Source: Obelidium mucronatum (taxonomy: Eukaryota > Chytridiomycota > Chytridiomycetes > Chytridiales > Chytriomycetaceae). Taken from it: a stretch of 64,000 bases of DNA. Where the stretch lies: positions 1 through 64,000 of the forward strand of contig JAIVFH010000015.1 in NCBI GenBank assembly GCA_025765595.1. The letters run 5' to 3'. This document shows, in pieces, positions 48,550 through 63,853 of this stretch (within the stretch, counting starts at the first letter, position 1; each line of letters begins with the position of its first letter). The notes below the pieces were generated by a model. The model was not told the DNA's origin. It did no database searches and saw nothing but the letters and a program-made list of their open reading frames with translations. The position numbers and the translations under genes were made by a program.

Positions 48550-48555
48550 TAATAG
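48550..48555. repeat. Target-site duplication TAATAG (left copy)
   Basis: TAATAG directly precedes the left terminal repeat (TACGGTGG...). The same six bases follow the right terminal repeat at 63848-63853. A 6-bp duplication fixes both ends of the element. Confidence 0.9.
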
Positions 48556-48724
48556 TACGGTGGTTAGTATGAACCGAGCAAAAATATTATTTTTAAAAAA
48601 CATTTTTGATTTTTTGAAGCACCCCCTCGGGTCTTTTTCGTCCACCTACCAACAAAAGCAACCTGCTCTCGCCACCAGAGCAGGCACCAGTGCTTGTTAT
48701 GCACAGCTGGTGTCTGTGTCTTGA
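48556..48724 (+). repeat. Left terminal inverted repeat
   Basis: 169 bp matching the reverse complement of 63679-63847 with one difference seen (CTCTCGCC here, CTCTTGCC there). The inner end holds a degenerate form of the internal repeat core (CAGGCACCAGTGC...GCACAGCTGGTGTC). Confidence 0.93.
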
Positions 48725-48759
48725 ACCAATGCTAGATTGAACTTGCAGGGGTTTCGATG

Positions 48760-49615
48760 GCTCTGGGTATGTCTCGGAATCGATGCTGGACACGCAGCAT
48801 GACGGGCGGGTTGTCTCACCATCGCTGCTGGCACCAGCGCGTGCTAAGCACAGCTGGTGCTTGAGCCTTGAATCGATTCTGGAAATTTGGTCAAGTTTCG
48901 AAAGTTCTGGAATTGGTTTGGAATCGATGCGGGGCACACAGCGCGACGGGCGGGTTGTCTCACCGTCGCTGCTGGCACCAGCGCATGCTAAGCACAGCTG
49001 GTGCTTAAGTCTTGAATCAATTCTGGAATTTTTAACTTGCTGGAGTTTCGAAAGTTCTGGAATTGACTTGGAATCGATACGGGGCACACAGCGCGAAGGG
49101 CGGGTTGTCTCACCGTCGCTGCTGGCACCAGCGCGTGCTAATCACAGCTGGTGCTTGAGCCTTGAATCGATTCTGGAATATCGGTTATGTTTCGAAAGTT
49201 CTGGACTTGACTTGGAATCGATGCGGGGCAAACAGCGCGACGGGCGGGTTGTCTCACCGTCGCTGCTGGCACCAGCGCATGCTAAGCACAGCTGGTGCTT
49301 AAGTCTTGAATCGATTCTGGAATTTTTAACTTGCTGGAGTTTCGAAAGTTCTGGAATTGACTTGGAATCGATACGGGGCACACAGCGCGAAGGGCGGGTT
49401 GTCTCACCGTCGCTGCTGGCACCAGCGCGTGCTAATCACAGCTGGTGCTTGAGCCTTGAATCGATTCTGGAATTTCGGTTATGTTTCGAAAGTTCTGGAC
49501 TTGACTTGGAATCGATACGGGGCACACAGCGCGAAGGGCGGGTTGTCTCACCGTCGCTGCTGGCACCAGCGCGTGCTAAGCACAGCTGGTGCTTGAGCCT
49601 TGAATCGATTCTAGC
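48760..49615 (+). repeat. Subterminal repeat array 1 (about 6 units)
   Basis: Units of about 143-150 bp, each with CAGCGCGACGGGCGGGTTGT, the palindromic core GCACCAGC...GCTGGTGC and GAATCGATTCTGGAA. Two types alternate: a long form with TTTTTAACTTGCTGGAG and a short form with TTTCGGTTATG. The array ends 150 bp before the start codon of the protease gene, so it doubles as its upstream region. Long open frames on both strands here are a by-product of the repeat period (a multiple of 3) and are not genes. Confidence 0.93.
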
Positions 49616-49725
49616 ATTGCCTACACTGTTAAAGTTGTTTGTCTGCGCATTACCCCGAAAGGAGGCCTCAAACTATACTGCCAGTATGCAAGACTAGTGT
49701 ATAGTTTTTTGCTGATGCAAACAGG

Positions 49726-49732
49726 TATAAAA
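49726..49732 (+). promoter_or_regulatory. TATA box of the transposon protease gene
   Basis: TATAAAA within GGTATAAAAGG lies about 37 bp before the ATG at 49763, downstream of repeat array 1. Confidence 0.6.
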
Positions 49733-49762
49733 GGCGTGCAAGGAATAAAAACCGAAAAATAA

Positions 49763-52296
49763 ATGTTCTCATACCAAGCAGAAAGCTGCTACAACCCAAA
49801 GGCGGTAGTCAACGATGAGAGAGGTGTGATAATTTGGTTTTGGCAGGAAGTTCTCTGTTGACAGTTGAAGTGTTTTGCAGAGTCCCAGGCTATCTGGAAA
49901 CCGCCTATGTCTGGAGCTTTTGGAACAATATGCACTCCAACAACAACCAGAAATGTGGGAGTTCAAACGGAATTCAATGTAACTGTTCTTGGTGATCGGT
50001 ATTTGATACTAGATCTAGACTCTGTACCAGGTTGGATTTCTCTTTTTTTGGCTAGGGATGTCCAACACTAACATATCCACACACAGGGCATCCAGGTCTC
50101 AGTTTGTATATTAACAACAAAGTTCCTGAGCAAGACACCAGTTTGGTGGGTGAAAAAACTGTTGTCAACCAGGTGGACAAACTCGACCAACGTATTGATG
50201 GAAATTGCGTCGGAGACGATGACGCTGCAACGGCTGAAAATACTGTGTACAAAAGGACCAAGTCAAGTGTTCATGCGGCTCCAGCATCTCTACCTCAAAC
50301 TCACAATGTTGAACCAGGCGTTGAAGTTTTGGCCAAGTCAGCCAGTAGGGTTGGATGCACCGGCGACGACAAAATGGATGGAGACGCAGGGGATTTCCTT
50401 TCGTTCATGGCTTCGAAGTCCCGTAGTGTTGCGGCATTTCGAAATTGGGAAACGACCGAAAATTTGCATTCAACCACTCCCCTGTTCTCGTCCTTCACTT
50501 TTGGTACCTCTGGCAAGGCCAATGTTCATCCAAAAACAGGGGGACTTGAAAAGCAATCGGTGACGCATGAAGTGTTTGCGGTGGTTGCTGATACGGCCAG
50601 GCCGTTGAAAAGAATCCGAGTCAAGAACCCATTGCCGCCGTTTTTTCCTGACAAACCATTACCATCACTTGGGATCAGATCAGATCCGTCGCTTGAAGTT
50701 GTTCCAGTTAACCAATTGAGGTGTAGCACCTGCAATACTCCAACAAAAGCGACTCACTGGTTTTTGGGGTTTGTGCCAGTGTGTTTTGCCCACTATAAAG
50801 GTGAGAATTTTATTTGTTGGAATATATATTACTATCTGATACAATTTTACTTACACAACCTCTTCTTAATAGAGCATAACTGGGAGCCGACCAGTTCGAA
50901 TGATGCAGACCTTTCTGTTGTGGCCCAGGCTTTGCCATCGTCGGAAGGCTGGACGGAAGACATGTTCTTTAAGACCAAGTTCGACAGTTTTTACCACTTT
51001 ATTGGCTGCCACGGGGAATTTGCTATGTTGGAATTTGATATTCTGCTACTGGAAGCTTTGAACCAACCTGTTCCCAATGGCTCATATGTGGGCATGACAC
51101 ATATCAATCAAGTCAAAAATTTGTTGTTGTACCCCGTTATATATGAAAGCGGCGCTGCTACTCGGTACATCTCAGCCGACCTTGCCAAGGAATTGGAAGC
51201 TTTTTGTCTAGACATAGAAGAAGAAAATCTGGAGTACTACAAGTTGGTATACACCACCCAACAGATGATGGGAGTTGTTGGGTTGGAATGTTGGAAAAAA
51301 CTGTTGCAAAGAATATGCGATAAAACAGTTGTCAAGAAACTGACTGACCAAATTACATCCAACTACTCTCACTTTGACTTGGATTCCCGTCTGCTGGTAT
51401 TACAAGAACATTGCTTGAAACAGGCATTGGAGTACTACAACCGTGACGACACTCGGACATTGATGAACGCCCGCAAGATTTCCTTGCTCGAATGTGGGAA
51501 AAATCTTCCAGTATTCAACAGGTTGTACTCCAATGCTGTTTTGAAAGCCCTCTCCGACAAGCGTGTACGAATTGGATACTTGGACCACTCTGATCTTTGT
51601 TCCCTTCTTCACGTGAATGATCCACTGGTCCATGCTCATGGGGACATTTCCGGGGAAGTTATTGACGGTGTTGCCTCTCTTCTTGAAACCAGACGTCCCC
51701 TGTTTCGATACGTTCCAACTGGTTTCACTGATGGTTACAAGAAAGGGGATGGTTCTTTTTTCAAACGTGAAGCTGTGCGTCTGAGCATGAGTTTGCTCCC
51801 CAAAGACAACAAAGGGATTGCTATTCCATGTTCCTTCTTCACTCCTGTCCATATCGACATCCCCACCCGGAGGTCTTACGGAGGCCATTGGTTTTCAGTT
51901 TACTATCATCGAATCAATCATGCCATATACTACGTCAATTCTGCCCCTACTTATCTTGAAAAGGAAGTGCTCACTGCAGTGAGATATGTATCTTGTGTGG
52001 TTGCAAAAGCCTTTCAAACCACGCGCCCAGGAATATTTTTTCTAGAAAGTGCCACCCAAACAAACAGCCACGATTGTGGTCTCTTTGTTCTTTGGCATTT
52101 AAGGCAGTTGAGGCAATCTGTGGATGGGTGGATCAACGACTGGAACAATTGCCGAAGCAAAGTTCCGTTATCGAACACCTTGAGATCAAGGGAGCTGGAA
52201 TTTCTTGTTAGTAGCAAAGTTGAATTGGACCAAATGGCGGGACGAGGAAAAGGACTTGGATTTTTTAGGAAGTGTGTTTCCCAAAAAAACAAGTAA
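49763..52296 (+). CDS. Transposon gene A: Ulp1-like (C48) cysteine protease
   Basis: Exons 49763-49823, 49881-50030, 50087-50800 and 50873-52296 join in frame to give 782 aa (MFSYQAESCYNPKAVVN...). The last quarter holds a Ulp1-type catalytic core: GGHWFSVYYHRINHAIYYVN (His and Asn) and QTNSHDCGLFVLWHLRQL (Gln and nucleophile Cys in DCG). The upstream 500 aa are unrecognised, with a CxxC pair (CSTCNTPTKATHWFLGF). Ulp1 enzymes remove SUMO or related tags or process precursors; in transposons they may mature the transposase or counter host SUMO-dependent silencing. It is followed 65 bp later by gene B on the same strand. Confidence 0.85.
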
Positions 52297-52361
52297 TAAA
52301 GCAGTTCCAAAATTAGAAAAATTAGAATAATTGAATTCCAAATCTAGAAAGCATTGTTTCA

Positions 52362-54750
52362 ATGTCAGCGACTGAAGAATGCGGGCTTTGCAGCCAATTC
52401 TTTGCTGTGAAGGACATGTTCATGGACGAAGAATCGGGGGTTTCCGTGTGCCAACCTTGTCATGACAAACTCCTGATTGAAGAAGATTGGGAAAACTGCC
52501 TCCTTTGTGGGAAACAATGGCCGTCCTCTCAAATGGCACGAAATGAAGCGGATCCTTCGGAGTTTTGTTGTGCTCAATGTAACTCTGAGGAAGTGGAGAA
52601 GGCAACATGTGGCATATGTGGGGACGAACATCTAAAAGCTGAACTGCTTAAAGATACAGAGAGTTCCCTTCTGTGTTGTGAAGGCTGCAATGGAAGTGAG
52701 ATTCAAGGCAAGTCTTTTCTCTGAGTAATAATTACCTTACATTTTACGAAGCAGAGTATATCTGCTGCTTTTGCGGGAATTCTGTTTCTAGTCCAGCCCC
52801 AATGGAATCGACAGTAATATGCGACCCATGCAAGAAATCTCCCCAATGTTATGGGTGTGGGGAAGTTTTTCCACTTGATGAACTTTTTGAAGTTTTGGTG
52901 CAAGAAGTAGCTGAAGAAATCCCAGATGGCGATCCATTTCAAACTGCAGATGACCCTTTCGAGGACACTATCCGATTTGTGTGTAATGCTTGCAAAATTG
53001 AATGTCAGAGTTTGGACAATGATGCCGCTTTCAACAGCCACATCACCAAGCTACATTTGAGGCCACGGGAACAGGAAAAAACCCCAGATAGAGCATGTTG
53101 CATCCAAAACCCAAGTCACTCATTTATTGACCCAGTTGATGCTACGAGTACACCATGTTGCTTGTCCTGCCATGTGAAATTAATAGTGTTGCACTATTTT
53201 TGGGCAGGAGACCCGCACACAAAAATCAGGGAGAAGCTTCTTGAAGCTGGACATGTTTTTACGTAATCTTATTTTTAATATTTAAAATGGTTTTGGAGTG
53301 CCTCTAACACACTTCTTTTTGATAGGAAGCGGACGTTTCAGAAGTACATGGAAACACATAAATTACGCCGTCGAGGACACACTTTGAAGGAGATAGCTGA
53401 AATGGAGGAAAGCGCAAGAAGAGCTATTTTAACATACCGTCAAAACGTTGGGGAGCGCATGGGATACAGGCTAATGGCGCAGCATTTACATCTGGTGCAC
53501 AACATACCGATGCCCCGGTAAAATCTTCCCAAGTGGGGATAAGCTGTACTAACTTCCTTAACATGTAGCGATAGCGTTCGTAAACTTTTGAGGGCCATGG
53601 AGGCATCCTTGGTTGACTCTCGAAAGTACCGAAAGCTTAAAAGAAACAATTTTGTGGGTAATGGCCCTTTTGAGACATATGCATACGACCAACACGACAA
53701 ATTCAGTAAGGTCAAAATGGATGCAAATTTAATTATTTTTTTATTCATACCCGCCTTGTTTCAGGAAGATATGGTGTCTATGTCCATGGCGCTATTGATT
53801 GCTTCAGCAGATTCCTTGTTAATCTCTGGGCACACAAAACAAATCGACAGGGCTCACTTATTGCCATTAAATATTTGGAGGCATGTCAGAAGTTTTCTCG
53901 TGAGATGCCTTCTTGTTGTTGGGTTTGATTTGGAGCTCAACTCAAACACATTCAGGTGTGTGGGACACTACTATTTCAGATAGAGGGACAGAAAACATAC
54001 TGCCAGGAAAAATTCAGTGCAAAATTGTTGGGGATCTGATTGAAGCATACTTGGAACTGCATCCAGAAGACAAAACTGTATTGGACCGAGATCCAGAAAA
54101 AAGCCACAGAACAGTATACGACTCAAGACTCAACCAAAAAATAGAATGTTTTTGGTCACATTTTTTACGCCAAATAGGATTTGACTTGTTGAATCGCCTG
54201 GAGGAGGGGGAACGGGGCATGCACTATGACGTTAAAGACATGGTTCACCGGTATGGCAGGCCACCACCCCAAAGTAAATCCTGATCTGCATTTTTACAGA
54301 ACGGTTTTCCAGTATTTGGCAATCCCCTACTTGAATGGCATCTTTGATGAGTATCGTAGAAAGTTCAACTTGAGAGACAAGAGACTTCAGAGGAACCGGG
54401 TGCTGCCCAGTGGAGCTGGCAGCAAAGCAGTTAATTTAATGCACGATCCTCATCTTTACCAGGCGGAGAAGATGGGGATTCAAGTTGATCCAAAGGTTCT
54501 TCAACCTATTATTGATGGCCTACAAAGCGACAAGCACAGCCAACTCTTCCCAGACGAAATTAAACTGTACTTAATTGAGGCCCATCAAGCATGTGGAAAG
54601 TCAAAAGTAACCTCCATTGAGTCCATTTGGCCAGTGATGAAGCAAATGGTGACATACATCAACAACCAAGTCGGTTGGGCGGCCCTCATCCACAGATACC
54701 AGGGAGCAACTTCACAGGACCTTGAAGAAGATGATCCCATAAAATGGTAG
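52362..54750 (+). CDS. Transposon gene B: zinc-ribbon protein with DDE integrase-like core (probable transposase)
   Basis: Seven exons (52362-52707, 52755-53262, 53326-53517, 53569-53705, 53765-53899, 53956-54250, 54300-54750) join in frame to 687 aa. The first intron is GC-AG (GGCAAGTC donor). The N-terminal third has repeated CxxC ribbons (CGLCSQFF, CLLCGKQW, CGICGDEH, CCFCGNS, CYGCGEVF). The central region has an RNase H-like integrase fold: YDQHDKF and YGVYVHGAIDCFSRF, then TTISDRGTEN, and after about 55 residues NQKIECFW, giving D...D...E. GTEN and NQ.IE.FW are hallmarks of integrase-type DDE enzymes. This is the best candidate for strand transfer of the element. Confidence 0.82.
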
Positions 54751-54799
54751 TCCCCAAATGATGCCAGGCATTCTTCAATTTCATAAACATTTTAAATAA

Positions 54800-55628
54800 A
54801 TATTGACCCTGGGCACACAGCCCGACAATTGATTCTGGAATTTTTAACTCTGGAATTGACTTGGAATCGATGCGGGGCAAACAGCGCGACGGGCGGGTTT
54901 TCTCACCATCGCTGCTGGCACCAGCGCGTGCTAAGCACAGCTGGTGCTTTAGTCTTGAATCGATTCTGGAATTTTTAACTTGCTGGAGTTTCGAAAGTTC
55001 TGGACTTGACTTGGAATCGATGCGGGGCAAACAGCGCGACGGGCGGGTTGTCTCACCGTCGCTGCTGGCACCAGCGCGTGCTAATCACAGCTGGTGCTTG
55101 AGCCTTGAATCGATTCTGGAATTTCGGTTATGTTTCGAAAGTTCTGGACTTGACTTGGAATCGATACGGGGCACACAGCGCGAAGGGCGGGTTGTCTCAC
55201 CGTCGCTGCTGGCACCAGCGCGTGCTAAGCACAGCTGGTGCTTGAGCCTTGAATCGATTCTGGAATTTTTAACTTGCTGGAGTTTCGAAAGTTCTGGACT
55301 TGACTTGGAATCGATACGGGGCAAACAGCGCGAAGGGCGGGTTGTCTCACCGTTGCTGCTGGCACCAGCGCGTGCTAAGCACAGCTGGTGCTTGAGCCTT
55401 GAATCGATTCTGGAATTTTTAACTTGCTGGAGTTTCGAAAGTTCTGGACTTGACTTGGAATCGATACGGGGCAAACAGCGCGAAGGGCGGGTTGTCTCAC
55501 CGTCGCTGCTGGCACCAGCGCGTGCTAAGCACAGCTGGTGCTTGAGCCTTGAATCGATTCTGGAATTTTTAACTTGCTGGAGTTTCGAAAGTTCTGGACT
55601 TGACTTGGAATCGATACGGGGCAAACAG
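54800..55628 (+). repeat. Internal repeat array 2 (about 5 units)
   Basis: Same ~143-150 bp units as at the left end, same orientation, after a truncated first unit. The order of long and short units and small variants (GTTTTCTCACCATCG, then GTTGTCTCACCGTCG) repeats in array 3, so the two arrays arose by block duplication. It lies between the 3' end of gene B and the inverted fragment of gene D. Confidence 0.93.
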
Positions 55629-56041
55629 TTTGGGGCTTCAGAAAGAACCCTGGCTGATCGCAGAGCGGTTTGAACGGCATGCCGAACAAGTCGACGTTTT
55701 CTGCGTCTACTGCTGTCAGCTACACTGTGCAGCGGTCTTGACTGTGCCTCTACAAGCGCTGGCGCATCTGGGCCCTTATTGAAACAGAGTGAGTTAGAGT
55801 GAGTTAAACCAGAAGCAACAGGACGCCAAATAAGAGCAACACCTTCTTCGGGCACATAGCCTCTGCCGCCAGTTTTGGTGACAAGTTGCAAACAGAAGGG
55901 GGTTGAGAGGCTTCGCTGCGATACGCTGCTAGGCCCTTCCCACACATCTCCAAAAAAAGGAAAAAATCTGACGCGGGAATTAAGGCAGCAAAATTGCCTA
56001 ACTCTTTCCAACCAGCTAATGAATTGCAAGAATCAGCAGGT
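55628..56041 (-). pseudogene. Inverted partial copy of the 5' end of transposon gene D
   Basis: The sequence is the reverse complement of about 59562-59975, ending at the same GAAGCCCCAAA and including the promoter-side GCAGGTACCTGTGCC junction with the repeat. It carries the first exon, the first intron and part of exon 2 of gene D and then runs into repeat units. It has no downstream exons, so it is a dead fragment made by an inverted duplication inside the element. Confidence 0.88.
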
Positions 56042-56044
56042 ACC

Positions 56045-57083
56045 TGTGCCTTAAATCGATTTTGGAATTTTTAACTTGCTGGAGTTTCGAAAGTTCTGGA
56101 ATTGACTTGGAATCGATGCGGGGCAAACAGCGCGACGGGCGGGTTTTCTCACCATCGCTGCTGGCACCAGCGCGTGCTAAGCACAGCTGGTGCTTTAGTC
56201 TTGAATCGATTCTGGAATTTTTAACTTGCTGGAGTTTCGAAAGTTCTGGACTTGACTTGGAATCGATGCGGGGCAAACAGCGCGACGGGCGGGTTGTCTC
56301 ACCGTCGCTGCTGGCACCAGCGCGTGCTAATCACAGCTGGTGCTTGAGCCTTGAATCGATTCTGGAATTTCGGTTATGTTTCGAAAGTTCTGGACTTGAC
56401 TTGGAATCGATACGGGGCACACAGCGCGAAGGGCGGGTTGTCTCACCGTCGCTGCTGGCACCAGCGCGTGCTAAGCACAGCTGGTGCTTGAGCCTTGAAT
56501 CGATTCTGGAATTTTTAACTTGCTGGAGTTTCGAAAGTTCTGGACTTGACTTGGAATCGATACGGGGCAAACAGCGCGAAGGGCGGGTTGTGTCACCGTC
56601 GCTGCTGGCACCAGCGCGTGCTAAGCACAGCTGGTGCTTGAGCCTTGAATCGATTCTGGAATTTTTAACTTGCTGGAGTTTCGAAAGTTCTGGACTTGAC
56701 TTGGAATCGATACGGGGCAAACAGCGCGAAGGGCGGGTTGTCTCACCGTCGCTGCTGGCACCAGCGCGTGCTAAGCACAGCTGGTGCTTGAGCCTTGAAT
56801 CGATTCTGGAATTTTTAACTTGCTGGAGTTTCGAAAGTTCTGGACTTGACTTGGAATCGATACGGGGCAAACAGCGCGACGGGCGGGTTGTCTCACCGTC
56901 GCTGCTGGCACCAGCGCGTGCTAATCACAGCTGGTGCTTGAGCCTTGAATCGATTCTGGAATTTCGGTTATGTTTCGAAAGTTCTGGACTTGACTTGGAA
57001 TCGATACGGGGCACACAGCGCGAAGGGCGGGTTGTCTCACCGTCGCTGCTGGCTCCAGCGCGTGCTGAGCACAGCTGGTTTTG
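56045..57083 (+). repeat. Internal repeat array 3 (about 7 units)
   Basis: Seven units in the same orientation as arrays 1 and 2. The first five closely copy array 2. The last unit is altered (GGCTCCAGCGCGTGCTGAGC) and breaks off at CAGCTGGTTTTG. The array is followed by the 3' end of gene C on the opposite strand. Confidence 0.93.
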
Positions 57084-57263
57084 ATTCTGAAAAACCTGTG
57101 GCCATTTGATATGCAAAGATGATATGCAAAGACAAATCTTCAACGTGTGAGGGCTGATAATTGGAAACAATTTATTTTTCTGAAAGCACATAGTCAGAAT
57201 CAGAATCGGAACACACAATCCTCTTTCGTTTTTCGCCTATATTTGCAGTATGAGCCCTTCCTT

Positions 57264-59335
57264 TTACGATTTCCTGTCTTCCTCGTCGTCCTCATTGTCG
57301 AGGAACACCATGAGTTGGGTATCCACTTCGTTTTTCTCCACAACTCCTTCTTCCAGTCCATTTGCGTCCCCCACTATCCCAGAGTTATATTCAGCCCACT
57401 CAGTCAATGACATTTGAGTGATGTTCTCCAACATGTCACTAACAATCGGCAAGCAGGAATCGTCGTATAAATCAACCAATTGAGCTGCTCGCATATACCA
57501 CATCAACTGCTGTGTAATCTCGTCGTCGTCAAGATAATTTATCATTGAAACGCCTAGAGCAACAAACTTAGTTCATAAATATTTAAAACCTGACGATGCA
57601 ATACCATCATATAAAACATTCCTGGCCAGCTCAACAAATCGCCTTGAGTGACTGTATCCGTCCAGAAAAGCAACAGCGGCACTACTTCGAATCTGACCCT
57701 CTGAGGTGATGTTATTGTCAGGGTCCGCGTATATTTGGTCGAATGCTTTGTAGTCACAGGTTGTCGGGTCGAAATTCTGGGGCAAACGCGCAGGAGGGGA
57801 ACATAACTGGCAACCGCAAAAGAGAACACCATGCATCTGGGCGTTCAGAGATGTTTGAATATAACTGGGCTTAGGAGTCAGGCCAGGATAGCAGGAACAG
57901 TCTGGAATACTTGGGGAATAGCAATCGTTACCCGCTCCGGCATGCTGTGCAAGGCCAAGAAACCCAACTTCGGACCCAGGAATAAATAGCGTGGGACTCC
58001 ACTTGTCAGGGTCACGGTCCTTCAACGGTGAGTAGTTTTTTGTTGCGTAGATGACATCGGCTTCTTTCAGTGGAAGGCCATGACCGGTTTGACGAACAAT
58101 CCCATGTCTCTCCCCAACAGACGGGGCTCTGATAAAAAACTGTTGAACGCAACAAATTATTTGGCTGTGCAATTAACTGACCTCGGCTCGTACAAATCCA
58201 AAAAATTGTTTCGTTGTCTGAAAATAGTTGTCTTTGTCGTACGCCCTATGGAAAGCAGAGTAGAGTAAACTCCCATCACATGGGCGTCATAGTGGTCCAT
58301 TTGCTGGTAAGTCAGTCCTGGTATGCTTAAAAGCAAAGCGATACCGGAGATTTTTATGTCCTCCTCTAACACTGTTGCCCCAAAAAATTCCTTCATGTAG
58401 CGAACAAAGACGCTCGTTCTGTTCTGTTGCATTTTCTTCAACGATCTGTCCAAAACAGAAAGACGGTCCTTCGGCACATTGTTCGTTTCAGCCCAGTCAA
58501 ATATATGCTTCCAACCTTCCAAGTAGAACTGGAAAGCATTTCCCGAAATACGTGAAACACCTTCTGGTAGTTTTGCTAACTGTCCTGACTGAAACTTTCG
58601 CCCAGCTTTGTGGTATTCTGTAAGCCAATATGTGGCCGATTTGTGAGGCGGCCAAAAAACAGACAGGGCCATGGCCTCCAGCACTTCAGCCACTACTTTT
58701 GTTTCACAACGGTCAAGTGGATGGAACATATGGCAGACGCCATGTGACCTGAAGCGCGCCAGGAGAGCCTCCATGTCAGAGTAATCGGGGAGCGCTGATC
58801 AATTGTTATTAGTTTAATTGAAATTGATTTGTGACCACTATTTACTTGGAAAAGGGGGTATCGATTTGGCTGTAAACTCCAGTGCCTTGTGTATCATATC
58901 GGTGGTTACAGCCAGGGCATCAGATGGAATCTTGCCATCCAGTAGTGGCCAAATCTCCAAGTCAAGCACGGACTTGGAGTCTATGGTTGAAATGCGCCAG
59001 CTGTACTTTCGACGGCCGCCGCCATGTCGCACCGAGTGCTTGTGCCTGAGGACAATATCCAGATTGTCAAGGAAAGCCATGCGGCTGCTCTCAATCCAAT
59101 CATGTGGCAGCTTTGCCTTGACGGACAGAACAAAAAACGGCGTTGGTCGGGGATAGATGTGGTCATGAACGTTGGATGGTTCCAATATAAACTCAGACAC
59201 CAGCAACGGCCTGGTTTCAGGCAAGACAGGATGCATCCGCTGTTCTGGAGTATGTTGCACAGGACGAAGCTGCTCAGGGGCAGTCCCTGTTGCTTTCCTG
59301 CTCTGCCTGTTCTTGCTTTTGCGTTTGGGTGGCAT
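57264..59335 (-). CDS. Transposon gene C: unrecognised protein
   Basis: Start ATG 59335 (MPPKRKSKNRQSRKATG, a basic, nuclear-signal-like N terminus). Exons 58846-59335, 58182-58794, 57590-58128 and 57264-57553 join in frame to 643 aa. Central landmarks are FWPPHKSATYWLTEYHKAG, FGATVLEEDIKISGIALL and a Cys cluster (CYSPSIPDCSCYPG, FCGCQLC). The last exon is very acidic (LDNEDDEEDRKS). I do not recognise a domain. A nuclear accessory factor for transposition is a fair guess from the basic start and acidic end. It is divergent from gene D, with one repeat copy between the two starts. Confidence 0.65.
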
Positions 59336-59366
59336 TTTAAACTATTTTAAGGGACAGAAACAGTCT

Positions 59367-59560
59367 CAAAACTCCAGCAAGTTAAAAATTCCAGAATCGA
59401 TTCAAGGCTTAAGCACCAGCTGTGCTTAGCACGCGCTGGTGCCAGCAGCGACGGTGAGACAACCCGCCCGTCGCGCTGTTTGCCCCGCATCGATTCCAAG
59501 TCAATTCCAGAACTTTCGAAACTCCAGCAAGTTAAAAATTCCAAAATCGATTTAAGGCAC
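59367..59560 (-). repeat. Internal repeat array 4 (one unit plus partial unit), inverted
   Basis: One full unit with the core GCACCAGC...GCTGGTGC and flanking half units, in the opposite orientation to arrays 1-3. It sits in the divergent promoter region of genes C and D. Confidence 0.9.
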
Positions 59561-59658
59561 AGGTACCTGCTGATTCTTGCAATTCATTAGCTGGTTGGAA
59601 AGAGTTAGGCAATTTTGCTGCCTTAATTCCCGCGTCAGATTTTTTCCTTTTTTTGGAG

Positions 59659-61036
59659 ATGTGTGGGAAGGGCCTAGCAGCGTATCGCAGCGAAGCCTCT
59701 CAACCCCCTTCTGTTTGCAACTTGTCACCAAAACTGGCGGCAGAGGCTATGTGCCCGAAGAAGGTGTTGCTCTTATTTGGCGTCCTGTTGCTTCTGGTTT
59801 AACTCACTCTAACTCACTCTGTTTCAATAAGGGCCCAGATGCGCCAGCGCTTGTAGAGGCACAGTCAAGACCGCTGCACAGTGTAGCTGACAGCAGTAGA
59901 CGCAGAAAACGTCGACTTGTTCGGCATGCCGTTCAAACCGCTCTGCGATCAGCCAGGGTTCTTTCTGAAGCCCCAAAGAGGTTTCCGCCATGTCAACCAA
60001 AGGAGCGTCTTTTTGTTGTGCTCAAGGATGACGGGGCGACACTTTCCCACGCTCGGTAGGTCATTTGCCCCTTGGCTTTAGGTTGATGTGCAGTCGCTGA
60101 TGAATTTTTTAGTCTGACCATTGATCCAGTGGCTTTTCGAGCCTATAGGCCTTTTCTAGATCGATTGTCTTCATTTTGCCGGAAGGGCAAGCGTGCCGAT
60201 GGGATGGAGCTAATCTGCTTCTGGAGGAAGGTTCAGGACTGTATAGTGAGTACATATTAATACCCCGTACCGCAAATACTAAAAGCTTCCCAGGCAGAGC
60301 CGCACTACAACGCTAGCATTACCAAGCCTGGGGTATCTGTGAAAAAAGCGGCGGCGGAGGGTGAGTATTTCACTCTAGGGGAGCACGTTGCACCTGCTCT
60401 TGCCGACTGCATCAGGGGCTTGCGGCCCTTGACTGACGACGTTCGATCTGCTTGTGAAGTATTAATGGGAAATGAAGCGGCCGAATGCTCAAGATTGGTT
60501 CAAGATGTAGGTTTGTTGTTGGTGGGTTCAAGTGAATGTTACTTATCTTCCTACTTAAGGATCTGTCTCGGTATGGGGAGGTGCCCTTTCCAGGTTTCAC
60601 AGCCAATTTTGCAACAGGCCCTAAGTGTCCTAGAGGAGTTCAAGGCCATTTAGACCTGAGCAACCACCCTTATTCAATTGGGGCTCTAATTGGTATATAC
60701 ACAGATCGTCCCACTCCCCGAGGAGTTTTGCCTATGCTGTACTTGCCGGACTCAGACACTTGGATCAATTTAGCGTCGAATGAGATAGCGTTGATTCCTT
60801 TCCAGGACACCAAGCACTACGTGGCTTTGTATCCTCCCGAAGAAGCTGCCAAGCTGTCCCCTGAAGAAATTGAAGAGTGTTGGGCCCAACGGACCTCCTT
60901 TATTTTAACTGACAACATGCGTACAACCAACGCATTCGTTCGAGAAAACCCAACCAAGTATCAAAAGTTCGCCAAAGTTATAGGGGAAAGTGTAGTCTGG
61001 AACACAAAGCACAGTGTTTTCTTTGAAAAGAAATGA
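59659..61036 (+). CDS. Transposon gene D: unrecognised protein
   Basis: The frame open from 59577 has no ATG. My model starts at ATG 59659 (MCGKGLAAYRSEASQPP), removes an intron 59797-59831 with a CTAAC branch site, and continues 59832-60055, 60113-60245, 60294-60506 and 60560-61036, about 394 aa. Exon 2 has a strongly basic patch (SSRRRKRRLVRHAVQ), a likely nuclear signal. The segment FRAYRPFLDRLSSF, ELICFWRKVQDC and ACEVLMGNEAAECSRLV recalls the helical pattern of RGS domains, but the match is weak. The C-terminal half is unknown. It converges on gene E with about 60 bp between stops. Confidence 0.6.
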
Positions 61037-61097
61037 ATGAAAAATAAAGAACTGCTTGAAAGAGATAAAGCATTGTAGTGAAGGAAATAGGTTCCTC

Positions 61098-63172
61098 TCA
61101 AAGAAGTGGGGGATAGTTGAACTTTCGACAGAACTCCCCGCACTTGTGACTTTGTTTGAAGTTGATCAAAGCCTGGGCAAAATTGGATCCACTAAAATAA
61201 CTTCAAATAGAACATGTGAGAACACAGCATGTCCAAAAAGACAGCTTACAGATTCGGGACTTTGTCTTTGTACTGTACACTCATGACAACCGCCACATCA
61301 GTCAGCCTCAAATGCCTGCCTGTGACCCCCCCTTGAAGGTCTGTGATCAAAATTTGACCTTGATACTTCTGAAAGGTAAAATGGCTAAACGAGGAAAGAA
61401 GATTAAAAATGAGCTCCTTGTCGGAGCCCAGGGGAAACATATCCTCCTCACAAACACCACTGTTGTGAAAGAACTTCACAAAATCTTGGTCATAAAGCCT
61501 TGGCTCCAAAAACCCGGAGGAGATCAAATCAAACTCCTGTGCCTGACTTTTGTCAATGTCGAAGCCAAAGGCTGGAATGCACTCCAGAAGGACCCCATTT
61601 TCCTTTACTGAACATACAATTATGAGATAACCTTCATAATTCTTTAGCCCGAGTACTTACGTGTTTGGGCCACACAAGACTCAGAACACCACTTTTTCAG
61701 AAAAGCAGCCACAAAATGCTGTTGAATAATTCCAGAGGCAGCGGCTGTGGACGGCTGCTGGGATAGGTTGAAATCAATCGCTTTGTTTGCATTTCGATCC
61801 CCTGGGATTCTGTCCCTACTACCAAGAAAATGCTTGAATACCAATGCTTTGGGACTTGGCAGGTTATCTGTTTTTTCCCAAGTACCCCCCAACACAGGCA
61901 TCACTCTTCGAAAAGACCCCCTTCCTAATTCCTGCAGTTGCACAATAACAGCCCCTTCGTGCAAAACCGTTTTTTCGTACTTGGTTCCCTGCAAAACAAG
62001 CTGGTACACCACCCCATTTAAGGTTGAGGTTGTGACTTTGGTTCCAACAAATGAGGGCGCTAGGATATTTCCTATCGCCATTGCCACAGCAGTGCCCTCA
62101 AAATCCCACAGGGCTTCCACATCTTGTCTTCCACGCTTGGATGAGGGCTCTTCTGGGTTGGAATCAGATGGGGCCAAGAGTGTAACCTCAGACATGTGAC
62201 TATTGAGGGGTTGGGCATCCTTTCGTGGCCGTCCTCGGGACCTTTTGACAGCCCCGGAAGTGAAAACTGTAGAAATCGACTTGGAGACGGACAAGCCCGA
62301 ATTGGAATTGGAGGACCCGCAGTTTGATGGAATCGACTCAAGAGCCTCCATCAGAAACACTCCATGAATGTTATTGACGGGTTTGGTAATCTCCAGTCGC
62401 TTAGGGGTCTTTGTCCATTCCTTGAACTCAGCACTGTGGCTTTTGAGGGTCTGATTGGGTTCGATCACACAGTGTGGTTTGGGAGACCCTACAAAAAGCC
62501 TTTAACACCCAGAACCAGAACAGGGCAAAACATACCTTTTGAGGTGGAACTCATCAGAATATATTTGCACTCAAAGTTGGGCCCATGGTCCTTTTTCACT
62601 TTGGCGAGGGCTTCCAACAACTGTGCAGAGTCGAAAACCCGCCGATGAAGGTCCAATATTTCGGTTTCATAGCTGCATTCATATTCCAAGGGAAAAGGCA
62701 GGCCAACAGGGGTGTAACTGTATCCTTTCTTGGAGAGAACCGCCTTGCATGGATGAACCACAAACGAATACTTGTACTTTCCGGTACCCCGACTGGGGTT
62801 ACCAGCAGCGTCATCGCGACGAGGTAAGGGCCTTTCACTTTTGGTCTGCTTCTTCTCAAATAAGTTGGGTTTGTGCTCCGATTCAGCCACTGTTGAAACA
62901 GATGTTAACAACAAACAATGAAAAATGAAAATCATACCCATGACAAAGCACTCGCGACAAAGGGGAGCCCCCTCAACCAGCTCAACAGCTCGTGCAGCAC
63001 ACCGGTTGATGCACTCCTTCTTGTGCCCTGGGCAGAAACCAAATGCAGCGAACACTTTGGTACCACATCCCTCCTCCTTGCAGTAACTATCCCTTTTCGG
63101 CAGGCCAGTAGCCCCCATTCTCAAATCTCGAAGCTTTGAAAGCGCTGCTGCGCTCATTGTCTTGCCCGACAT
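61098..63172 (-). CDS. Transposon gene E: zinc-finger/AT-hook protein with C-terminal alpha-kinase
   Basis: Start ATG 63172 (MSGKTMSAAALSKLRDLRM). Exons 62938-63172, 62536-62889, 61661-62488, 61250-61607 and 61098-61191 join in frame to 622 aa. The N terminus has a Cys/His cluster (CKEEGCGTKVFAAFGFCPGH, CINRCAARAV, CRECF). The middle has an AT-hook (KRSRGRPRKD). The C-terminal ~240 aa follow the alpha-kinase (MHCK/eEF2K) pattern: ALVFKHFLGS, GFLEPRLYDQDFVKFFHNSG, FSHFTFQKYQGQILITDLQG, LTDVAV and the zinc site FKQSHKCGEFC with H-x-C-x3-C. So it should bind DNA and phosphorylate Ser/Thr. The plus-strand frame over the same bases is a shadow. Confidence 0.8.
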
Positions 63173-63274
63173 GGTTTGCACTTTTTGACACAATTTCAAA
63201 TTTCAGCGTTGCAACAATGCCAACAATGTATTCCCAAGTAATTCCGGCAGTACCAACATTCCAGCAAGCATTCA

Positions 63275-63665
63275 AAGAGCCAAATACCAGCTGTGCTTAG
63301 CACGCGCTGGTGCCAGCAGCGACGGTGAGACAACCCGCCCTTCGCGCTGTGTGCCCCGTATCGATTCCAAGTCAATTCCAGAACTTTCGAAACTCCAGCA
63401 AGTTAAAAATTCCAGAATCGATTCAAGACTAAAGCACCAGCTGTGCTTAGCACGCGCTGGTGCCAGCAGCGACGGTGAGACAACCCGCCCGTCGCGCTGT
63501 TTGCCCCGCATCGATTCCAAGCCAATTCCAGAACTTTTGAAACTTGACCAAATTTCCAGAATCAATTCAAGGCTCAAGCACCAGCTGTGCTTAGCACGCG
63601 CTGGAGCCAGCAGCGACGGTGAGACAACCCGCCCGTCGCGCCGTATGCCCCGTATCGATTCCAAG
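63275..63665 (-). repeat. Subterminal repeat array 5 (about 2.5-3 units), inverted
   Basis: Same units as at the left end but in inverted orientation, so each end of the element points its units the same way relative to the terminus. It lies 100 bp upstream of the start codon of the kinase gene. Confidence 0.92.
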
Positions 63666-63678
63666 CAACAACTTGCAT

Positions 63679-63847
63679 TCAAGACACAGACACCAGCTGT
63701 GCATAACAAGCACTGGTGCCTGCTCTGGTGGCAAGAGCAGGTTGCTTTTGTTGGTAGGTGGACGAAAAAGACCCGAGGGGGTGCTTCAAAAAATCAAAAA
63801 TGTTTTTTAAAAATAATATTTTTGCTCGGTTCATACTAACCACCGTA
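63679..63847 (-). repeat. Right terminal inverted repeat
   Basis: Reverse complement of 48556-48724 with one mismatch seen. It ends CCACCGTA and is followed by TAATAG. Confidence 0.93.
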
Positions 63848-63853
63848 TAATAG
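63848..63853. repeat. Target-site duplication TAATAG (right copy)
   Basis: Same six bases as 48550-48555. The remaining 147 bp to the window end are host DNA. On the minus strand they hold an open frame (KLSKFQHSLPNGIGLQVFD) that might be an exon of an upstream gene; nothing firmer is seen. Confidence 0.9.

Follow-up and report, generated by a model that had tools for sequence, protein, structure and literature searches.

The window analysed here is a stretch of 64,000 nucleotides from contig JAIVFH010000015.1 (C15 below) of the chytrid Obelidium mucronatum (Chytriomycetaceae), a saprobe, and positions 48556-63847 of it hold a complete DNA transposon, 15.3 kb long, that was recently mobile. 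Its two ends (48556-48725 on the plus strand, starting TACGGTGG, and 63678-63847 on the minus strand, finishing CCACCGTA) are terminal inverted repeats (TIRs) of 170 bp that pair with one mismatch, and the likeness drops from base 171. A preliminary description of this DNA had given 169 bp with one mismatch; the ends and the mismatch count stand, and only the length changes. The 6-bp target-site duplication (TSD) TAATAG that it had reported was found at 48550-48555 and at 63848-63853. It had also proposed to look for an empty site, and a search of the same genome with the joined flanks found an exact one at C421:5609-5779 on the minus strand, where the element is absent and the junction is crossed with a single TAATAG. 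This alignment extends 100 bp to the left of the site and ends 73 bp to its right. The left flank on C15 matches C421 at 97% over 1556 bp, and further flank matches are collinear on both contigs. Because of the junction with one TAATAG, the 97% left flank and the same order of matches, C421 is regarded as an allele or a duplicated segment. From 63927, just to the right of the element, the two contigs differ again, up to about 5.5 kb beyond it; by coordinates, C15 has about 4.7 kb extra there, perhaps another insertion.

The element carries five genes, g1 to g5, whose models are all open when spliced, with 18 GT-AG introns and one GC-AG intron (19 altogether). The five intron-bearing genes described earlier thus hold, with two changes of boundary, a fifth exon needed by the kinase (61098-61191) and a start of gene 4 at 59659. 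Pfam matches bear out the Ulp1-type protease, the DDE enzyme and the alpha-kinase that had been named among them. The g1 gene (49907-52296, plus strand; exons 49907-50030, 50087-50800 and 50873-52296) encodes a Ulp1-type cysteine protease of 753 residues (Pfam Peptidase_C48, 1.4e-4), in which the H, N, Q and C motif positions were all found. The g2 gene (52362-54750, plus strand, 7 exons) encodes an integrase-type DDE transposase of 692 residues with a Cys-rich N-terminus (PF24764, 1.1e-11) and the triad D389, D453 and E508. The protein search with g2 gave four matches, one in Obelidium and three in Rhizoclosmatium. On the minus strand, opposite to the transposase, g5 (61098-63172; exons 62938-63172, 62536-62889, 61661-62488, 61250-61607 and 61098-61191) encodes an alpha-kinase of 622 residues with a Cys/His-rich N-terminal part. 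The fifth exon completes the kinase fold, and the match to PF02816 goes from 4.2e-14 without it to 3e-18 with it, covering profile positions 36-185 of 185. The protein also matches the TRPM7-type kinase 1ia9 (4.4e-7), to which the catalytic and C-terminal zinc-module motifs TDLQG, LTD and HKCGEFC align. Between g2 and g5 lie g3 (57264-59335, minus strand, 4 exons), which encodes an orphan protein of 638 residues, and g4 (59659-61036, plus strand), which encodes 378 residues.

The ends recur elsewhere in the genome, as a search proposed in the preliminary description was meant to establish. At an identity that rounds to 100%, the first 245 bp have matches in C631, C81 and C21 and the 170-bp end has matches in C441, C81 and C21. 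Two close copies are C81:45732-57808 (12.1 kb, TSD ATTTCG) and C21:163408-173398 (10.0 kb, TSD CAGAAC), and a third appears to be split across contigs C631 and C441 (TSD TCCTCG). These copies are 94-99% identical to the window over the main aligned stretches. The C21 copy is without g4 and g5, in the C81 copy g3 and g1 have suffered deletions while g1 and g2 contain gaps, and the contigs C631 and C441 hold only the left end and a right part that starts within g3. The 18-bp terminus had 46 matches with at most 2 mismatches, compared with 4 for a reversed control pattern. These matches fall into at least three terminus families, whose ends continue with AACCGAGC, GCTCT and CCGTATGAACCTG. A 6-bp TSD was present in all 10 insertions with both ends readable, drawn from three terminus families and each with a different TSD; five further listed end pairs were left out of this count, and the TSD AAAAAG at C15:339060 is weaker evidence among the 10, as it sits in an A run. 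Elements of this type, short ones of about 1.0-1.3 kb with similar ends and TSDs of 6 bp, also occur, for example on C505 (715-1993 of the stretch taken), and are likely to be non-autonomous relatives. Contig C295 holds a decayed relative, in which pieces of g1, g4 and g5 are broken by stops.

A sister element was found at C240:884-11737 (TSD CAAGGG), with a relative of g1, a DDE gene and a TET/JBP gene followed by an opposite alpha-kinase gene. It is like the window element in the first 16 bp of its ends, the 6-bp TSD, the order of g1 relative and DDE gene and the opposite alpha-kinase. Its g1 relative is 36% identical over 145 residues (7e-20). Its DDE protein (PF24764, 5.5e-8) aligns with that of the window in stretches of 28-59% identity, 47-59% in the later part and 45% overall. 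Its alpha-kinase (1.5e-12) has a Cys/His-rich N-terminus similar to that of g5. In contrast to the window element, it carries a canonical TET/JBP gene (Pfam Tet_JBP, 1.1e-8, just at the curated cut-off; in the PDB, a Naegleria Tet-like protein at 0.0019 and CcTet at 0.015), has no match to g3 and shows inverted similarity of its ends over only about 37 bp. Arrays of the 147-bp unit described below were not found in it, whereas near its right end there is a short array of a 22-bp unit, and its left half holds a 108-bp repeat. The C240 element is itself a TET/JBP-bearing transposon in a chytrid.

Polintons have an integrase, a cysteine protease and 6-bp duplications, features shared with the window element, which might be taken for a Polinton/Maverick or virus-like element in decay, with integrase and protease retained. 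This origin is highly improbable, since none of the five window proteins has a Pfam match to a DNA polymerase (PolB), a capsid protein or a packaging ATPase, and the C240 element has TET/JBP and a kinase instead. Ulp1 also occurs in Zisupton, one of the Zisupton/Dileera/Kyakuja (KDZ) transposons. KDZ elements are found in fungi and may carry TET/JBP, and the available text of PMC12730594 gives them TSDs of 8 bp (Zisupton and a Dileera family) or 7 bp (Kyakuja). Their transposase is a different one. The KDZ/Zisupton reading was rejected, the TSDs here being 6 bp and not 8 bp.

The layout of the C240 element ties the window element to the published fungal IS3EU transposons, and we assign it to the IS3EU superfamily with a probability of about 0.85. 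In the portions consulted of two publications, complete IS3EU elements end in TA..TA and their TSDs are usually 6 bp long (PMC10045372), and those of the rusts (Pucciniales) have 6-bp TSDs, TIRs of more than 30 bp and ends of the form TAYGG..CCRTA (PMC12730594). The window ends TACGG..CCGTA fit both descriptions (PMC10045372, PMC12730594). The 6-bp TSD is supported by the 10 counted insertions and the empty site, and the integrase-type DDE by PF24764 and its triad. The same part of PMC12730594 (December 2025) places the TET/JBP gene of all TET+ IS3EU elements between the transposase and an oppositely oriented alpha-kinase, and reports a TET+ family from Tuber indicum as well. An alpha-kinase opposite to the transposase is present in both the window and C240. 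Between the two genes C240 has a TET/JBP gene, and the window has g4, which lacks a Pfam match and shows a conserved motif and a profile match. The preliminary description took the combination of genes for a system that it did not recognise, which holds only in part: the ends, TSD, DDE and opposite kinase match fungal IS3EU, and g4 sits in the slot of the published oxygenase gene.

A previously unknown superfamily, with a DDE of an undescribed lineage and a merely coincidental likeness to IS3EU in ends and TSD, is improbable. PF24764 covers integrase cores in general, and the four DDE homologues of the protein search come from Obelidium and Rhizoclosmatium only, which would both suit a new superfamily; but the TACGG..CCGTA ends, the 6-bp TSD and the opposite alpha-kinase all agree with fungal IS3EU as far as the published text describes them, and C240 carries TET/JBP at the published position. 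Several points speak against the IS3EU assignment and the roles given to its proteins. Membership is judged from the ends, the TSD, the domain and the layout, and not from Repbase transposase sequences. For the DDE profile of g2, no integrase match turned up among PDB sequences. The Ulp1 match of g1 is weak, an N stands where Ulp1 proteases usually have a D, and the g1 relative on C240 has no Pfam match of its own.

Compared with the TET+ families of Pucciniales and Tuber, as far as PMC12730594 describes them, the window element has the same 6-bp TSDs, the kind of TIRs given for the Pucciniales families, opposite transposase and alpha-kinase genes and, between these, g4 as a probable oxygenase gene. 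It differs in its chytrid host, its Ulp1-type protease, g3, long repeat arrays, and a divergent oxygenase-like g4 where those elements have a recognisable TET/JBP. The main text of that paper mentions neither Ulp1 nor a protease. GingerRoot is grouped with IS3EU and has 6-bp TSDs and mostly TA..TA ends, whereas it was reported from a clubmoss and is supposed to have animal relatives, and neither a kinase nor an oxygenase is mentioned for it in the text available (PMC10045372).

The g4 gene occupies the slot between transposase and kinase where C240 has TET/JBP. Its exons are 59659-59763, 59832-60055, 60113-60230 (or 60245), 60294-60506 and 60560-61036, the start being taken from the NCBI model of the C441 copy. 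The pattern HxD..H..R is the signature of 2-oxoglutarate (2OG)-Fe(II) dioxygenases, and in g4 its parts lie within 60644-60664 (HLD), 60809-60829 (H) and 60887-60907 (R). In an alignment of five family members, two of them nearly alike and P0009 left out, the invariant columns include HLD, KH and RxS, with distant members at 27-29% identity. When the g4-family profile was compared with the TET/JBP protein of C240 by hhalign, the HLD, KH and RxS residues fell in register (P 6-7e-4), with a score of 32.7, whereas the best of 60 shuffles reached 24.1 and the reversed sequence 12.9. From motif and profile, g4 is probably a divergent 2OG-Fe(II) dioxygenase of the TET/JBP-like group, so that of the two orphan proteins named earlier only g3 would stay one. 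A good deal tells against this assignment: the hhalign probability is only 27-29%, g4 has no Pfam match, the PDB sequence search with its profile gave nothing useful, pairwise BLASTP against the C240 TET/JBP was empty, the match coming from the profile comparison alone, and the AlphaFold model from three sequences has a mean pLDDT (predicted local distance difference test) of 37. On these grounds g4 might be an unrelated orphan and not an oxygenase, both extra genes then being novel cargo, but we consider this rather unlikely in view of the invariant HxD, H and RxS, the profile match that beats 60 of 60 shuffles and the shared position. Distant relatives of g4 lie on C45, C90, C144 and C25. 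The genome holds 75 matching stretches; near copies are counted among them, a gene may contribute several pieces, and many are weak. They point therefore to a large, divergent oxygenase-like family, which g4 would reveal and which domain searches miss.

For g3, three protein matches were found, all in Obelidium, the search having scored only the best 8000 candidates by shared words. Neither g3 nor two of its homologues has a Pfam match, and the PDB sequence search with the g3 profile gave nothing useful. The ratio of nonsynonymous to synonymous substitution (dN/dS) against the C109 homologue is 0.24 over 601 codons, and g3 is therefore under purifying selection. It would be an accessory protein, a new conserved protein of the element without a family match; its AlphaFold model, again from three sequences, has a mean pLDDT of 37, which counts against such a reading. 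Homologues of g3 together with related repeats lie on C109 (84% protein identity), C23 and C274, and no relative of g2 was detected beside them in the stretches taken. The gene and the repeats seem to move between element families. That g3 and g4 are host genes caught by chance, passive passengers without a role in transposition, would agree with these stretches and with the C21 copy that lacks g4 and g5. We find it doubtful, however, as the dN/dS of g3 indicates constraint and the C21 copy could have arisen by internal deletion and be helped by others.

The route of movement is likely cut-and-paste by g2. The transposase would use its Cys-rich N-terminus to bind the 170-bp ends and the dyad repeats near them, cut at the ends and insert with 6-bp staggers. 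The products of g1, g4 and g5 may be helpers by which both the transposase and the element are kept active. Among them, g1 would strip SUMO-like modifiers, g4 would oxidise methylated DNA at the element, and g5 would phosphorylate the transposase or host silencing factors. These helper roles are deduced from the protein families alone. A broader proposal, which we put forward tentatively and hold to be somewhat doubtful, is that fungal IS3EU elements, from rusts to chytrids, have kept the alpha-kinase and a base-oxidising enzyme as part of their core machinery and not as cargo. The chytrid branch would have added the Ulp1-type protease, and the window family would have swapped TET/JBP for the g4 family, perhaps acting on another methylated base, with g3 as a new conserved element protein. 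If this is true, the element has tools of protein modification, phosphorylation and DNA demethylation against host silencing.

As far as searched, the new features are the chytrid host of an IS3EU element, the additional protease, the divergent oxygenase family, the arrays of dyads in units of about 147 bp, and g3. In the open-access papers searched, IS3EU was not found together with Chytridiomyc-, nor TET JBP with chytrid, nor alpha kinase and transposable element with chytrid, and Tet dioxygenase, transposon and Chytridiomyc- co-occur only in work on low-complexity regions. The partnership of transposase, oxygenase and alpha-kinase, known from rusts and a truffle according to the text seen of PMC12730594, is here extended to a chytrid. 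The kinase therefore appears to be a durable component of these elements rather than an accidental one. The recent copies and the exact empty site offer a setting in which the role of an alpha-kinase in a transposon can be examined.

The remaining features are repeats. A 30-bp dyad, contained in a unit of 144/150 bp (about 147 bp), occurs in the window in 21 copies with at most 3 mismatches, all of them within the element, while 0 were expected. Six of these lie in the left array (48683-49612, plus strand), 11 between g2 and g3, one between g3 and g4, and three in the right array (63286-63666, minus strand; one dyad begins at 63284), the left and right arrays being mutually inverted. By repeat comparison, two arrays separate g2 from g3 (54849-55628 and 56034-57079, both on the plus strand), and inverted units lie between the divergent starts of g3 and g4 (59366-59572, minus strand). 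The shared repeats were earlier placed at ends and promoters; they are present at the ends, but as 11 of the 21 sit where the 3' ends of g2 and g3 converge, they are not just features of ends and promoters. They are probably binding sites for element proteins. A 621-bp stretch (55620-56240, minus strand) is a 99% identical inverted duplicate of 59366-59986, which comprises the 5' part of g4 and a repeat. Its core was not found at the corresponding place in the C81 and C21 copies, and the duplicate is therefore either a rearrangement of the window copy or an assembly fault. Recombination between repeat units is the favoured cause of the internal deletions, gene loss and rearrangements among the copies.

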